From Nitrospirae bacterium CG2_30_53_67 (GTDB lineage: Bacteria > CG2-30-53-67): 9,380 nt of DNA. The notes under the pieces are model-generated. The model was not told where the DNA came from, made no database searches, and was given only the letters and a program-made list of their open reading frames with translations. The translations under genes and the position numbers were made by a program. Within the stretch, counting starts at the first letter, position 1; every line of letters begins with the position of its first letter. Location: the NCBI GenBank assembly GCA_001873285.1, contig MNYV01000171.1, positions 1 through 9,380 of the forward strand, read 5' to 3'. Positions 882 through 6,782 of the stretch are shown here, piece by piece.

Positions 882-1421
882 TCAACGCTTCGAGCTATAT
901 GATTTGGGCAACAGCCCGTGTAGGCGCGACCCTGGCAGCGCACGTTCCATATCGCACTCCTCCTCTGAAAACGACTGTTTTCTGCAAAGCAAGGATACGA
1001 GTGATGAAGGCGATCGATTTTCGAGTTCGTCAGGTTGCCTGTTCTGTGTTATATCGATTGTACGAATAGGCTTCTGCGGTGTGAGAACTAGTTGCGAAGG
1101 ATCTTGAACCGGCAGCCGGTCATCACCGCGTGTTCTAATGGTGAAGAAAAATGTTTGTCCTTCTTTCTCCACATCCATGACCTCATGGCCCAAGCGGTTA
1201 CAGATGTGTTCAATCTCCCAAGGCATCTCGATATCGCTGCTCCGTAGAATAAGAAGCCGGCCTGGCGGCATACGGTCTATCAGCGCTCGTATAAGAAATG
1301 CTTTGGGCGCCATCAAGGGAGCTACAAGGTCAATCTCCGGAATCAACAGATGCTGCTTCTTCACAATTCTGACATTGCAGCAAAGCTTTCTTAAACCTTC
1401 TTTTAAGAAGGCGGACCGCAC
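882..1421 (-). CDS. TusA/SirA-fold protein lacking the catalytic cysteine, with a long C-terminal tail
   Basis: With the GTG start at 1421 (ribosome site GGAAGGGGG just upstream) the protein has 179 residues. The frame is open back to a TTG at 1514 and ATGs at 1478 and 1451, but none of these has a visible ribosome site. Residues about 29-98 align with the TusA fold: IDL at the first strand, RMPPG at the turn, then LGHEVMDVEKEG and TFFFTIRTR as the last strands. TusA proteins carry a persulfide on a Cys-Pro motif at the start of helix 1. Here that position reads MAPK, so the Cys is replaced by Met (about residue 37). The tail of about 80 residues (99-179), with Cys in LLCRK and EEECD, matches nothing I know. 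Being last in a run with DsrE2 and TauE suggests a sulfur-relay accessory or scaffold, or a decaying gene next to IS debris. Confidence 0.6.
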   Translation of the reverse strand: MRSAFLKEGLRKLCCNVRIVKKQHLLIPEIDLVAPLMAPKAFLIRALIDRMPPGRLLILRSSDIEMPWEIEHICNRLGHEVMDVEKEGQTFFFTIRTRGDDRLPVQDPSQLVLTPQKPIRTIDITQNRQPDELENRSPSSLVSLLCRKQSFSEEECDMERALPGSRLHGLLPKSYSSKR

Positions 1422-1598
1422 AATACCCCCTTCCAACCGTCTGCGCTCCATAGGGAGCTGGACAGAATGGCTCAGCATCAGAGGATTACTGAGACTCAAG
1501 CGATTTTGCGCCAAGACTACTCGGCATCGGCCTAGTTGTAAACAAACGCGCTAAACCCCTCGATTCCCAATTCGCCCGCCCCCGTAATTTGTTCAGTC

Positions 1599-1637
1599 AG
1601 ATCAATCTTGAAGACCATCAAACAAAAAGATTGATCT
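1599..1637. repeat. Inverted repeat at the dsrE2 stop codon
   Basis: The 11-bp arms AGATCAATCTT (1599-1609) and AAGATTGATCT (1627-1637) are perfect reverse complements separated by 17 nt. The stem straddles the last codons and stop of dsrE2. There is no T-run on the minus strand after it, so it is not a standard terminator. It could slow RNA decay or weakly attenuate the downstream TusA-like gene. Confidence 0.5.
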
Positions 1638-2121
1638 TGGCGTCGCTTGCGATATCAAGATAGCTCGCCGCGCCCACAAACTCACACCCATCGATGAAAT
1701 CACTTTGATGAAAACCGAAGAGTTCCATGGTCATCTGGCAGGCCAGCAACTTGACCCCGGCTTCCATACACAGGCTTCTGAGCTGTTCGATGGTGGCAAC
1801 GCCGTTGTTGGCGATGGTCTTTTTCATCAGGACGGTAGCCAAGCTCTCATATCCAGGAATATTGGCCTGAACAATATTCGGGATGTTCCAGCTGATATTC
1901 CGGAACCACTTTGGTCCCATAGGCATCTTCATGGGCATGGCCGGGTTGCCCAAGGGGCTGACAGTGGCTGTGATCTTTTTCTTGAGCAGGGTCAGACCAT
2001 AAAAGGTAAAGAAGATGCTGACCTCGTAGTCGAGAGCGGCGGCCGTAGACGCGAGGATAAAGGGGGGGTAGGCCCAGTCCAACGTTCCTTTTGTTGATAT
2101 GATTGTCATTTTTGTTCCCAT
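1618..2121 (-). CDS. dsrE2: DsrE2-family protein (DsrE/DsrF-like sulfur carrier)
   Basis: The protein has 167 residues from the ATG at 2121, chosen because of a clear ribosome site (AGGAAAGGAG, 7-nt spacer); the frame is open further upstream without one. The start MTIISTKGTLDWAYPPFILA is the typical first strand and helix of the DsrE2 group. It is followed by FFTFYGL (about 37-43), the LGNPAMPM loop (57-64), and GVKLLACQMTMELFGF (122-137) with the conserved Cys at 128. It ends with a CEFVGAASYLD segment (146-156). DsrE2 proteins act in cytoplasmic sulfur transfer in rhodanese-TusA-DsrE2 clusters of sulfur oxidisers and related anaerobes, where the Cys binds persulfide sulfur. Here the neighbours are a TauE permease upstream (46-bp gap) and a TusA-like gene downstream on the same strand. 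No rhodanese gene is visible in the window. Confidence 0.85.
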   Translation of the reverse strand: MGTKMTIISTKGTLDWAYPPFILASTAAALDYEVSIFFTFYGLTLLKKKITATVSPLGNPAMPMKMPMGPKWFRNISWNIPNIVQANIPGYESLATVLMKKTIANNGVATIEQLRSLCMEAGVKLLACQMTMELFGFHQSDFIDGCEFVGAASYLDIASDAKINLFV

Positions 2122-2167
2122 AACTCTACTCCTTTCCTGTGGGCTGAAACGGTTTTCATCAGCCCTG

Positions 2168-2920
2168 TTAGTAAATCCATCCCTCTCTTTGATAGGTTTT
2201 GTTTTGGTACATCCAATAAAACACAAGTAAGAACAGCATGAGGCCCGACAAGCTGTAACAGATGATAGTCAGGTTTAAAGGTATCAATATCAAAGATGTC
2301 ACAACTTCTATGAGTATAAGCACCAATAGCATCTTCACGATCGCTTCTCTCGATAAAATAGAGCATATAAGCGCTCCAAGGGGGGCTCCCACCACCACGA
2401 CCGGAACAGAAGCTATCCAATAGCCTCGGACATTGTCTGTAACTCCTTGAAGGATAAATTGGTATATGAAAACTCCCACGATGGCATTTGTAGCCATTAG
2501 GACAACATTTGTAATATTAGGAACCAAGAGAGGGGAAAATGCAAAGGCGCCGCAGGTAATCCCGATCACTCCGCCTGAGCTTGCCCATAGCAGAACCCGC
2601 CTTTCGACCGGTATCCCGCCTATGAAAATAAGAAGCGATGCTGCCGACATGCCGATGCTCTGGATGAGAAGGGCGAAAACCTTTGCGTCATAAGGCGGTA
2701 TGTGTAGGAGCTTTGTGAACACAGGAAACGAAACGGCGGCGCCCCCTTCAGCGGTTCCGCCGGCTATAATGGACCCAAAGACCATTGTTATGGTTACTTC
2801 CCAATTGTCGAACAAACATGAAAGTAATTTATCCCGGCCCACTGCCACCAGCAAAAGCACCCAAGTGTATAACACAACAAGAACAGGGAGTTTAGAATGT
2901 AATTTATGCGGCGAGTTCAT
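2168..2920 (-). CDS. TauE/SafE-family membrane permease (putative sulfite/sulfonate exporter)
   Basis: The protein has 250 residues from the ATG at 2920 (AAAGG 7 nt upstream); a GTG at 2944 would add eight residues. About eight hydrophobic segments are visible. The second carries GSIIAGGTAEGGAAVSFPVF (about residues 48-67), resembling the family signature of glycine-rich turn then Pro. The second half has a matching repeat (VVVVGAPLGALICSIL), consistent with the two-repeat TauE/SafE (TSUP) architecture. The length is normal for the family. TSUP members move sulfite, sulfoacetate, thiosulfate or other organosulfur anions across the inner membrane, and direction and substrate cannot be read from sequence. 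Its position directly before dsrE2 on the same strand suggests that it handles a sulfur anion made or used by the sulfur carriers. Confidence 0.85.
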   Translation of the reverse strand: MNSPHKLHSKLPVLVVLYTWVLLLVAVGRDKLLSCLFDNWEVTITMVFGSIIAGGTAEGGAAVSFPVFTKLLHIPPYDAKVFALLIQSIGMSAASLLIFIGGIPVERRVLLWASSGGVIGITCGAFAFSPLLVPNITNVVLMATNAIVGVFIYQFILQGVTDNVRGYWIASVPVVVVGAPLGALICSILSREAIVKMLLVLILIEVVTSLILIPLNLTIICYSLSGLMLFLLVFYWMYQNKTYQREGWIY

Positions 2921-2982
2921 TTCCGGGCCTTTCAAATGATCCACTTGGGAAAGCTAACGGACACACCCCTACGTTACGCATT

Positions 2983-3430
2983 TTAAAATACGAGCGGCAA
3001 TAGCCGATACGTGTTCTTCCGATAGATAACATATTGTTCCCCGAAAGCCTCAAGCAGCGCCCGTTCTTCGATTGTTATGCGATAAAGGTACAAAGGAAGA
3101 GCAAGAAAGATGAAAGCGAGGATTCCAAAAGTACTTTGTAAGAAAATAAGGAGTCCAAGAAACCCGAGGATCAAACCCGTGTAGCTGGGATGTCGTATGA
3201 CGCTGTATATCCCATGGGTGACTAATTGATGCTTTTCCGTAATTTGCACCTTTGTTAAATGCAAGTAGCTGTGGATTCCATACAAAGCTTTGAGGAACGC
3301 GGGTTACCATAATGAAAGCCGATTCGAACAAGAAAACAGATAGAATGACCCGATATATGGGTTGAGATAATGCCGTTTGATAACGAGGAAAAGAGAGTTG
3401 ACGATAGAATCCTATTTTGCTTGACTGCAT
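2983..3430 (-). pseudogene. Isoprenylcysteine-carboxylmethyltransferase-like membrane protein, frameshifted
   Basis: The C-terminal part (about 3303-2983) carries the hallmark of the ICMT/PEMT-like methyltransferases: HQLVTHGIYSVIRHPSYTG, then a hydrophobic stretch, then EERALLEAFGEQYVIYRKN and a hydrophobic end. These bind S-adenosylmethionine at the membrane through the RHPxYxG and EE motifs. The N-terminal part (ATG at 3430, G-rich site upstream, membrane segment IYRVILSVFLFESAFIMV) is in a different frame. The switch must fall between about 3303 and 3285, because the C-terminal frame has a TAA at 3306-3304. Joined, the product would be about 150 residues, short for the family. Either the gene is broken, or only the C-terminal part is made from a TTG near 3285. 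A sequencing error in one base would also explain it. It sits between the HMA-like and TauE genes in the same direction. Confidence 0.7.
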
Positions 3431-3548
3431 TGTGAGCCCCCCCCTACTCACTCACATCAATGGGAATAAGAGCAAGCTGTTAAGTTAATCTGGCCTTCTT
3501 AAGAACAATCTCAGTCCTGTCCACCAGCACATGAATTCTACGGATGCA

Positions 3549-3776
3549 TCAGAGCCCTACAAGACGGCCTGTGAAACCGATTGCATGCAAGCGGACTAAT
3601 AGTTGATAAGAGGATGTTTTCTCTGGATCGTATGCGACAAGCAGGAGCCTGTCTTGACTTGGATTGAATCTCGGAGCGATCACTCCGGCCTCCTGCCGGA
3701 GTTGCTGTTCAAGTTTAGCCCGGTATTCAGGATGAACAGCATGGTCAAGGTAAATCATTATGTCGGCTAAATTCAC
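3549..3776 (-). CDS. Small HMA-fold protein without metal-binding cysteines
   Basis: Seventy-five residues from the GTG at 3776, chosen for its ribosome site (AAAGGAG, 8 nt upstream); the same frame is open further up but overlaps merR. The predicted order strand-helix-strand-strand-helix-strand fits a ferredoxin-like HMA fold: IMIYLD, then PEYRAKLEQQLRQEAG, VIAPRFN, RLLLVAYDPE, SSYQLLVRLHAIG and RLVGL. Heavy-metal-associated domains normally bind copper or similar through CxxC in the first loop. Here that loop (DHAVHPEY) has no cysteine, and the protein has none at all. It begins 47 bp after merR on the same strand. I recall similar stand-alone HMA-like proteins with PRFNP and LLVAYDP motifs but no assigned function. 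A partner-binding or regulatory role is a guess. Confidence 0.65.
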   Translation of the reverse strand: MNLADIMIYLDHAVHPEYRAKLEQQLRQEAGVIAPRFNPSQDRLLLVAYDPEKTSSYQLLVRLHAIGFTGRLVGL

Positions 3777-3823
3777 TTTGAGCGCTCCTTTCAAGTTAAT
3801 ATCGGGTTCAACAATTCTGAATA

Positions 3824-4306
3824 TTAAAGTATAGCCCCGAATGGCAAAGGAATTCGGCTCCTTCTGGTCACAATATCGCAAGCTATACAATTTTCTCTTG
3901 TGGGCCGGAGAGAACATCCCTTGCATTCAGAGACAAGAAGAATGGCTTGATCGAGCTCGTCTCTCAGTTGCATATATTCCTTTATCTTTTGGTCCATGAG
4001 ATCCCTTTCTTTCATGAGCTGTTCTAAGACCAAACCGTAGGCATCGTTCCCGGTTTGATGCTCTTTGCGAATCCGGTAGAGTGTTTTTATCTCTTTGAGA
4101 GGCATCCCTAAGCTTGTTAGTTTTTGAATAAACGAGACCTTGTCGACCACATCAGGGCTGAAGAGATAAAAACCACCAAGACTTCTTTCGCATGCTTGAA
4201 TAAAACCCTCCTCAAGATAATATCTCACGGTTCTAATAGTTGTCCCCGCTCTACGTGCAACGTTTCCTATTTGAAGGCGTTTCTTAGTGTCCATAAGTGC
4301 TACCAT
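3824..4306 (-). CDS. MerR-family transcriptional regulator with a C-terminal cysteine cluster
   Basis: The protein has 160 residues from the ATG at 4306 (an alternative ATG lies at 4294). Residues 13-36 form the MerR winged helix-turn-helix (IGNVARRAGTTIRTVRYYLE), followed by the wing with GGFYLFSPDVV and the LGMPLKEIK segment. A long dimerisation helix covers about 88-122. The C-terminus holds four Cys at 128, 131, 140 and 143 (CKGC and CIAC), a likely metal- or thiol/sulfide-responsive site, and ends LPFGAIL. MerR proteins bend promoter DNA in the -35/-10 spacer. The gene's own promoter has a dyad exactly there, so autoregulation is likely. It heads a same-strand run of sulfur-handling genes, which it probably controls. 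What it senses (metal, persulfide or sulfite) is not determined. Neither candidate start has a ribosome site. Confidence 0.88.
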   Translation of the reverse strand: MVALMDTKKRLQIGNVARRAGTTIRTVRYYLEEGFIQACERSLGGFYLFSPDVVDKVSFIQKLTSLGMPLKEIKTLYRIRKEHQTGNDAYGLVLEQLMKERDLMDQKIKEYMQLRDELDQAILLVSECKGCSLRPTRENCIACDIVTRRSRIPLPFGAIL

Positions 4307-4313
4307 AGATGCA

Positions 4314-4342
4314 TATATACATTAACGTTATTGTACTGTCAA
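4314..4342 (-). promoter_or_regulatory. Promoter of the merR-led operon
   Basis: Read on the minus strand: -35 TTGACA (4342-4337), a 17-bp spacer, and -10 TATATA (4319-4314). The predicted start is near 4307, right beside the merR ATG at 4306, so the transcript would be leaderless or nearly so. This matches the absence of a ribosome site. The alternative ATG at 4294 would leave only about 12 nt of leader. Confidence 0.65.
4318..4335. promoter_or_regulatory. Candidate MerR operator (18-bp dyad in the promoter spacer)
   Basis: TACATTAACGTTATTGTA is a dyad with a single mismatched pair (4322/4331), built around the perfect core TAACGTTA (4323-4330). It lies almost entirely between the -35 and -10 boxes of the merR promoter, the standard location of MerR-family operators. 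The 17-bp spacer is shorter than the 19-20 bp typical of MerR-activated promoters, which points to repression or mild autoregulation rather than classic untwisting activation. Confidence 0.6.
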
Positions 4343-4517: not shown

Positions 4518-5510
4518 CTAATGGAGGAATGTCTCCGGTTCTCTGTATTCATGGCACGTTTTGCACGTGGTTTTTGCAGCATCCTTCCCGACCTTCCACT
4601 CATGCGGCTTATGACAGATGATGCATTCCATACCGACCATATTGATATGGAGGTCGTGTTTGCCGACTTTCTGGATCTCCCGGTGGCACTTGAAGCAGTC
4701 GGACTGCTCGGGCTTGACCTGGGTATGAGGTTTATGACAGGTATAGCATTCAAAAGACATCGGGGCCCCTTGAGGGAATTTGATCCCTAACGTCGAGGCC
4801 TTCTGCACCATATTCGGATCAGGGATGAAGTGTTTGGTATCCACGGTCTTGGGGGCCAGGGCGATCCTTGATCGGGTTTCTGCGTCCCCATGGCAGGTCA
4901 GACATTTTTCCCTGTTCGGCCGGATATCCTTGGTTTTGTCCGTATGGCAGGCCAGGCAGGCCAGTCCTTCCATACCGAGGCCATGGACCTCCTTGCCTTC
5001 ATGACATTTCAAACAGAACCTGTCGCTGGGAAGGAACTCATGAAGGCCCGCCTTGTTCTCTTTGAGGTATCCATGACATTTGGAGCATTCAATCTGTTCA
5101 ATGAATACATGTTTTGCATGTCCAGGGGATTTTGAAATATTCGGCGCGCTTTCAAATCCTTTTTCTGTCTCCCAGTGACACTTGAAACAGAATTTCCAAG
5201 GGACAATGATCTTCCCGTGCCTTGCCTCAACGGCCGTGGGTTTCTTCAAGAGGGTCATCAGGAGCATCCTGTTCTGTTCCCGGGGTGTTGCGTAATGGCA
5301 TTCATGGCAGGTGACGCGGCTGTGGACGCTCTTCTCCCATGCATTGTAGGCGGTCTGCATCAGGTGGCAGCTGACACAGAATTTGGGATTATTTTCTGTA
5401 AAATCGTGAACATGATAGGCTATGGTCCCGCCCCCGGCAAAGATGACCAGGAGCAGAAGAATAATAATCAGGCGCCCCTTCAAAGATATCTTTTCCTTAA
5501 AAATATTCAT
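4518..5510 (-). CDS. Undecaheme membrane-anchored cytochrome c (NapC/NirT-like N-terminus)
   Basis: The protein has 330 residues from the ATG at 5510, chosen for its ribosome site (GAGGGGGG, 4 nt upstream); an in-frame start at 5543 lacks one. Residues about 12-33 form a single uncleaved-looking membrane anchor, so the rest should lie in the periplasm. Eleven CxxCH heme motifs start at Cys 45, 68, 108, 142, 166, 185, 203, 255, 272, 296 and 316. The first part (FCVSCHLMQTAYNAW and VTCHECH) resembles NapC/NirT quinol dehydrogenases. Those normally have four or five hemes and fewer than 200 residues, so this one carries a long extra heme-rich domain. The likely role is moving electrons from the quinol pool to periplasmic reductases or other cytochromes. 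It has its own terminator and an AT-rich promoter region; no partner reductase is next to it. Confidence 0.92.
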   Translation of the reverse strand: MNIFKEKISLKGRLIIILLLLVIFAGGGTIAYHVHDFTENNPKFCVSCHLMQTAYNAWEKSVHSRVTCHECHYATPREQNRMLLMTLLKKPTAVEARHGKIIVPWKFCFKCHWETEKGFESAPNISKSPGHAKHVFIEQIECSKCHGYLKENKAGLHEFLPSDRFCLKCHEGKEVHGLGMEGLACLACHTDKTKDIRPNREKCLTCHGDAETRSRIALAPKTVDTKHFIPDPNMVQKASTLGIKFPQGAPMSFECYTCHKPHTQVKPEQSDCFKCHREIQKVGKHDLHINMVGMECIICHKPHEWKVGKDAAKTTCKTCHEYREPETFLH

Positions 5511-5569
5511 TGATCCCCCCTCAGAGATGATGAACAAAAACAATGAAGATGATACCGAAATTATTCGAA

Positions 5570-6479: not shown

Positions 6480-6523
6480 AAACATCAGGGGTCAAGGGTT
6501 CAAGGATTCCAGGGGTCAAGTGA

Positions 6524-6553
6524 ACCCCGTTAGAGGTTGTCCTCTAACGGGGT
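6524..6553. repeat. Perfect 13-bp palindrome with a 4-nt loop
   Basis: ACCCCGTTAGAGG (6524-6536) and CCTCTAACGGGGT (6541-6553) are exact reverse complements around TTGT. No T-run follows on either side, so it is not a normal terminator, although such a stable hairpin could still protect or block the radC transcript end. It sits at the inner edge of the left arm of the repeat element. Confidence 0.8.
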
Positions 6554-6556
6554 GAA

Positions 6557-6731
6557 GTGCTCAAACACTACAAGGAGTTAAAGGAAGGGCCCCAGTCTTA
6601 TCAATTATGATTGGAGATTTACAAAATAACAAAAAGATTTCCTGGAGAAGAAAGATAGTGATATCGAGGAGGTTGAGCGGATGCTCAAGGCACTGATCAA
6701 ATCACTGGAAAACAAACACTTGACCCCTTGA
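6557..6731 (+). pseudogene. Four-helix-bundle (S23/IVP-type) protein gene, broken
   Basis: The first part, from about 6557, reads HYKELKEGPQSYQL, then a TGA at 6608-6610, then LEIYKITKRFPGEER and a TAG at 6656. Intact family members have YKELKVWQKSYQLCLEIY and KFPxEE here, so the TGA probably replaces a Cys codon. In another frame, 6654-6731 reads DIEEVERMLKALIKSLENK and ends HLTP-stop, the usual C-terminus. About 60 central residues are missing, including the LTSQIRRAAVSIPANIAEG-type block. With a stop, a deletion and a frame change it cannot make the normal protein. These small proteins (about 120 residues) resemble those encoded in 23S rRNA intervening sequences and the accessory protein of diversity-generating retroelements; no retroelement is visible here. 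The right inverted arm overlaps its last codons. Confidence 0.8.
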
Positions 6732-6782
6732 ACTCTGGAATCCTCGAACCCTTCTTAATAAACATGAAAGAAAAAAATATAG

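Follow-up and report, generated by a model that had tools for sequence, protein, structure and literature searches.

A putative MerR-controlled operon of mixed origin in a Nitrospirae draft genome, with truncated methyltransferase and permease genes before conserved dsrE2 and tusA-like genes

The window, by which we mean the whole stretch of DNA that was analysed, is a complete contig of 9,380 bp (C171) from a draft genome of 2.36 Mb in 183 contigs (G000). It carries six genes on the minus strand in the order merR, HMA-fold gene, ICMT-like gene, tauE, dsrE2 and tusA-like gene, as an earlier, sequence-only reading had proposed and as Pfam and NCBIfam models and the open reading frames confirmed. 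The features of the locus are as follows:

4306-3824, minus strand: merR, regulator with a C-terminal CX2C-X8-CX2C motif (Pfam MerR_1, 1e-12)
3549-3776, minus strand: HMA-fold gene, 75 aa, cysteine-free (predicted structure, homologues)
2983-3285, minus strand: ICMT-like methyltransferase, a truncated gene with the C-terminal half only (57% identity to the Chromatium weissei homologue)
2168-2944, minus strand: tauE/TSUP gene with about 80 middle residues missing (likely ATG start at 2920; homologue alignment)
1618-2121, minus strand: dsrE2, intact (NCBIfam NF047629)
882-1451, minus strand: tusA-like gene without the CPxP cysteine (likely ATG start at 1451; the listed ORF begins at TTG 1514)

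With the likeliest starts, the intergenic gaps in gene order are 47, 281, 38, 46 and 166 bp, so that the description of the gaps as short does not hold for all of them. The HMA gene starts at a GTG after AAAGGAG, and its overlap with merR in the ORF list is an artefact of an early in-frame ATG. Upstream of merR, a multihaem cytochrome gene (4518-5543, minus strand), NapC/NrfH-like with eleven CXXCH motifs, is set apart from the locus by a terminator-like stem at 4481-4460 on the same strand. Elsewhere in the window, 434-676 on the plus strand encodes a plausible 80-residue membrane protein matching no family above cutoff, and an intergenic repeat lies between radC and glnD, where two segments (6489-6524 and 6717-6757) agree at 95-97% with the beginning of contig C143. 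Family-model scans recovered no rhodanese among the ORFs of 882-4306, in keeping with the sequence-only reading; Rfam gave no match, and the defence-system library yielded nothing beyond a weak match to the MerR helix-turn-helix.

A MerR-type promoter precedes merR at 4342..4312 on the minus strand, comprising a -35 box TTGACA (4342-4337), a 19-bp spacer and a -10 box TATATG (4317-4312), with TATATA and a 17-bp spacer as an alternative reading that also fits; a general promoter consensus scan missed it, being restricted to spacers of 16-18 bp and by further rules. Within the spacer, at 4318..4335, lies the palindrome TACATTAACGTTATTGTA, symmetric at 16 of 18 positions; read between TTGACA and TATATG, the spacer encloses TACAATAACGTTAATGTA, likewise symmetric at 16/18 positions. 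This operator palindrome is the sole match in the window (0.01 expected). A genome of the sister genus (G003) has a similar merR promoter layout (TTGATA, spacer 17 or 20 bp) and a perfect 22-bp palindrome at the equivalent position. The core operator pattern, at no more than one mismatch, occurs once in the window's genome and once in G003, both times at merR, with no occurrence in six class members lacking this MerR and none for a reversed-pattern control. A palindrome between the -35 and -10 boxes is the typical arrangement of MerR-family promoters, so a self-regulating single-target circuit at the predicted operator is likely. Neither the palindrome nor the promoter figured in the sequence-only reading, whose idea of a MerR-controlled locus of unusual composition is supported. 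For translation of merR, no Shine-Dalgarno sequence was seen in the window, and G003 merR has AAAGGAG; translation may start at 4294. In the window, the merR start codon coincides with the expected start of transcription or follows it closely (4294-4317), as in leaderless or weakened expression.

The MerR helix-turn-helix, together with an operator palindrome in a 19-20 bp promoter spacer, places the regulator in the MerR superfamily. Its orthologue in G003 is 63% identical and its homologue in the purple sulfur bacterium Chromatium weissei 31% identical with the same cysteine spacing, the C-terminal CX2C-X8-CX2C motif being common to all three. As the hallmark of mercury-type MerR we took one cysteine where the dimerisation helix begins and two more in the C-terminal loop. 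All three proteins have alanine at the helix position, where both Hg-type MerR proteins of another class member (G006) have cysteine; the missing helix cysteine weakens the case for a classical metal ligand. A classical mercury sensor was rejected on this ground and on the NCBIfam MerR score (51.9 bits vs. a cutoff of 150.85). SoxR was rejected as well, the motif being CX2C-X8-CX2C and not the CX2CXCX5C [2Fe-2S] site, with a SoxR model score of 50 bits vs. a cutoff of 116.9.

The description of the second gene product as a cysteine-free HMA-fold protein proved correct. An AlphaFold model built from two sequences (pLDDT 85) has HMA-type topology, and in Foldseek the nearest solved folds were an ATP7B domain (TM 0.82) and MerP 1osd (TM 0.78); the protein thus belongs to the HMA group by predicted fold and lacks the CxxC metal ligand. 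Homologues were found in G002, G004, G006 (two copies) and C. weissei, and those of G004, G006 and C. weissei also lack cysteine, as far as they are readable. As the lack is common to these homologues, the cysteine-free state is a trait of the HMA family and not part of decay. The idea of a selenoprotein (UxxU family NF041115, 17 bits vs. a cutoff of 95) was dropped, since the frame has no TGA and the product no cysteine; the readable homologues are also without the NF041115 UxxU motif. The second cysteine-free HMA gene of G006 (L187, 4831-5464) lies directly upstream of a DsrE/TusD-like gene. Plasmid searches with the HMA protein and with the TusA-like protein gave no match.

Both membrane genes of the locus are incomplete. 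The ICMT-like product belongs to its proposed family by its C-terminal catalytic domain (Pfam ICMT, 49.6 bits vs. a cutoff of 24), but it covers only residues ~122-215 of the C. weissei homologue (215 aa), at 57% identity, and the N-terminal membrane helices are absent. No in-frame N-terminus exists in the ~250 bp upstream; in another frame there is weak resemblance to the lost N-terminus, matched in score by ~4% of shuffles (p ~0.04), and loss by deletion plus frameshift is likely from these sequences. The TauE assignment also stands at the level of family. A TSUP/TauE exporter is a two-repeat membrane protein with both glycine-rich motifs, here of about 300-350 aa; the window protein has 258 aa, with an in-frame gap of 78-81 residues relative to all 30 aligned homologues. 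Within the missing stretch, about a quarter of the gene length, fall 15 columns that at least 27 of the 30 homologues conserve, including the second glycine-rich motif, and both homologous ends are in frame and align cleanly, so the protein falls short of a TSUP/TauE exporter. Its Pfam TauE score is 23.2 bits vs. a cutoff of 32.6, compared to 88.8 for the full-length C. weissei homologue. In an AlphaFold model from 31 sequences, the lowest internal confidence falls at residues 140-145, the deletion junction; a fold search with this model returned no solved relative. Over the rest of the protein, 6 of 51 conserved positions differ, a share that other distant homologues also reach. A search of genome contigs with TauE alone gave no match. 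A functioning sulfite exporter is unlikely, and export of sulfite, as the sequence-only reading had suggested, finds no support here, tauE having lost its second glycine-rich motif and the ICMT gene its N-terminal half.

A TauE family scan of 84,980 genomes returned 80 loci, and in one of these, in C. weissei DSM 5161 (L066, 4560-6966), HMA-like, MerR, ICMT and TauE genes stand in a row. Here ICMT (215 aa) and TauE (329 aa) are full length, TauE being 47% identical to the window protein. The HMA-like gene is without cysteine and of low similarity to that of the window (21%, E 5e-5), a match that we accepted on agreeing position, length and end points. This module thus resembles the window locus in all four genes, including the CX2C-X8-CX2C motif of MerR; it differs in its full-length ICMT and TauE, in having the HMA gene before MerR and in the absence of DsrE2 or TusA, neither of which was found near it. 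A TrfA-type plasmid replication gene follows the module, and its flanks (L066, 1-4443 and 6972-7952) hold phage-type genes (Gp157, ORF6N) and this replication protein; from such neighbours, the module probably rides on a plasmid or phage-plasmid. Elsewhere, TauE relatives were absent from 385 other genomes of many groups and from G001-G007; close TauE relatives occur in 5 of 369 genomes of C. weissei's class, and the ICMT subfamily in one of 210 genomes of its order, a rarity that fits transfer. Viral contigs searched with the ICMT and TauE alignments and phages searched with ICMT yielded none.

In contrast, dsrE2 and the tusA-like gene have the features of native genes. The DsrE2 assignment held (NF047629, 218.1 bits vs. 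a cutoff of 210), and all eight genomes of the window's class have dsrE2 as well as a homologue of the TusA-like protein. A second, stand-alone dsrE2 copy on contig C174 (L033, 7370-7870) has 96% protein identity to the window copy, with 91% DNA identity over the gene and ribosome-binding region only, the flanks being unrelated to the window. Between the copies dN is 0.018, dS 0.41 and dN/dS 0.04, and the low dN indicates purifying selection on dsrE2; the C174 copy and a same-genus orthologue differ by a dS of 0.20, half the inter-copy value, so that the duplication predates a split within the genus. The TusA-like protein scores 22 bits vs. a Pfam cutoff of 28.6 and has Ala-Pro in place of the CPxP cysteine, a position without cysteine in 10/10 homologues. 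It was correctly described as lacking its cysteine, but another, Cys105 (HxCN..LGH), is present and invariant in all 10. The core of the gene evolves slowly relative to G001 (dN/dS 0.07-0.16), unlike the ends of the listed ORF, which puts the probable start near 1451. G001 has a 3' end of dsrE2 ahead of its tusA-like gene, where a contig ends. Taken together, comparison within the class shows dsrE2 and the tusA-like gene to be native to it and under purifying selection. As to the sulfur relay proposed for the locus, DsrE2 is intact, but the sole TusA lacks the catalytic cysteine, as does its class-wide family, and this weakens the sulfur-relay reading.

Comparison with described systems gives partial matches. 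The rhd-tusA-dsrE2 and tusA-dsrE2 clusters of sulfur oxidisers (PMC4175335) likewise have dsrE2 adjoining a TusA-fold gene, possibly on a shared transcript, but the window has no rhodanese, Hdr or Dsr genes, a TusA-like protein without catalytic cysteine, and another order and regulator. The locus is like mer operons in its MerR-type promoter with a palindrome between -35 and -10 and in its small HMA-fold protein, and relatives of its TauE and HMA-like proteins occur in mer clusters: L098 has a TauE relative beside MerR, MerT and MerP, and in a mer-like cluster of G006 (L186, G006:C48, 5936-9976), comprising MerR, MerT, MerP, zf_CopZ, ArsR, cysteine-free HMA, a second MerR and a thioredoxin-like protein, the HMA gene follows the ArsR gene. 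Unlike mer operons, the window has neither MerT nor MerA, its MerR lacks the Hg-site helix cysteine and its HMA protein lacks cysteine. Alteromonas copper clusters (cupredoxin, Cu-ATPase, ICMT) similarly pair MerR with ICMT (PMC8478169), but the window has no Cu-ATPase or cupredoxin, an HMA protein without CxxC, and a TSUP permease instead. Most other TauE relatives have no metal context, nor do the neighbourhoods of plasmid ICMT relatives. The G006, L098 and Alteromonas links indirectly favour soft metals or thiol-reactive species, and sulfur oxyanions are indicated by the genomic links no more strongly than soft metals are.

We consider it rather probable that the locus is a decaying stress operon of mixed origin, autoregulated by MerR, with an acquired cassette placed before a native and maintained dsrE2 and tusA-like pair. 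A module of merR, cysteine-free HMA, ICMT-like and TSUP (TauE) genes would have arrived by transfer ahead of the native genes. MerR would sit on the palindrome that separates the -35 and -10 boxes, and ligand uptake at its C-terminal four-cysteine site would untwist the promoter so that all the genes are transcribed together. Where the module is intact, as in C. weissei, a soft metal or thiol-reactive species may be bound or passed on in the cytoplasm by the HMA-like protein, and a product may be methylated and expelled by the two membrane proteins. With both membrane genes broken in the window's genome, sensor, HMA-like protein, DsrE2 and TusA-like protein would be left, and these might buffer sulfur or metal but export neither. 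The sequence-only reading of a circuit for stress or detoxification, rather than an energy-metabolism cluster, is probable, with sulfite export by the present locus set aside. Several points speak against our explanation: the window is one whole contig of 183, in which an assembly fault could mimic deletions, although tauE is in frame at both homologous ends; the low identities of HMA (21%) and MerR (31%) to C. weissei mean that the four genes may not have moved together; and the scarcity of metal neighbours around TauE and plasmid ICMT relatives, like the missing helix cysteine of MerR, counts against it too.

In G003, the merR stop runs without any intervening base into the final 29 dsrE2 codons, behind which lies the tusA-like gene. 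One could argue from this merR and tusA-like gene without middle genes that merR-dsrE2-tusA-like is ancestral, G003 showing the older order, and that HMA, ICMT and TauE were inserted later in the window's lineage only. We regard this as unlikely: the junction behind the merR stop is a deletion scar, with most of dsrE2 gone, and HMA, ICMT and tauE, if once present, would have been lost with it; in addition, the C. weissei MerR, with the same four-cysteine motif, accompanies HMA, ICMT and TauE. The neighbourhood recurs in parts, as merR, ICMT, tauE and HMA-like genes in C. weissei and as merR, dsrE2 remnant and tusA-like gene in G003, so it is not the case, named beforehand as grounds for giving up the sequence-only reading, that no relative conserves it. 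Quite improbable, in our judgement, is a working circuit that traffics sulfur and exports sulfite or persulfide, its TauE and methyltransferase still being active despite their shortening; an intact DsrE2 from a conserved sulfur-carrier family, the TauE family name and the gene order with DsrE2 and TusA-like protein agree with it, but TauE lacks ~80 residues with 15 conserved columns, ICMT its N-terminal helices and the TusA-like protein its catalytic cysteine, and neither DsrE2 nor TusA lies beside the C. weissei module. That the truncations are assembly or binning artefacts of a really intact operon, as a complete 9.4-kb contig in a 183-contig draft might suggest, is just as hard to credit, given the in-frame TauE junction with clean alignment on both sides and the independent losses in related genomes (the G003 deletion; no TauE in G001-G007).

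Returning to the decaying operon of mixed origin, labelling the window as a sulfite-export operon would mislead; the locus would instead be a cassette caught decaying before native genes. A bolder proposal, possible but not likely in full, is that a mobile four-gene stress system, intact in C. weissei, responds to a sulfane-sulfur species, a metalloid or a soft metal by methylating a thiol or metal-thiol product, which it then exports, and that it is here wired to the native sulfur-carrier pair and shrinking to sensor and carriers. For experiments, the intact module of C. weissei is better suited than the window locus; as a detoxification cassette it would be small and easy to clone, and its MerR sensor is of an untested kind. 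The analysis also defines two small families that kept the fold and lost the usual ligand residue, the cysteine-free HMA proteins and the class-wide TusA-like proteins, the latter without a catalytic cysteine yet with an invariant cysteine elsewhere.
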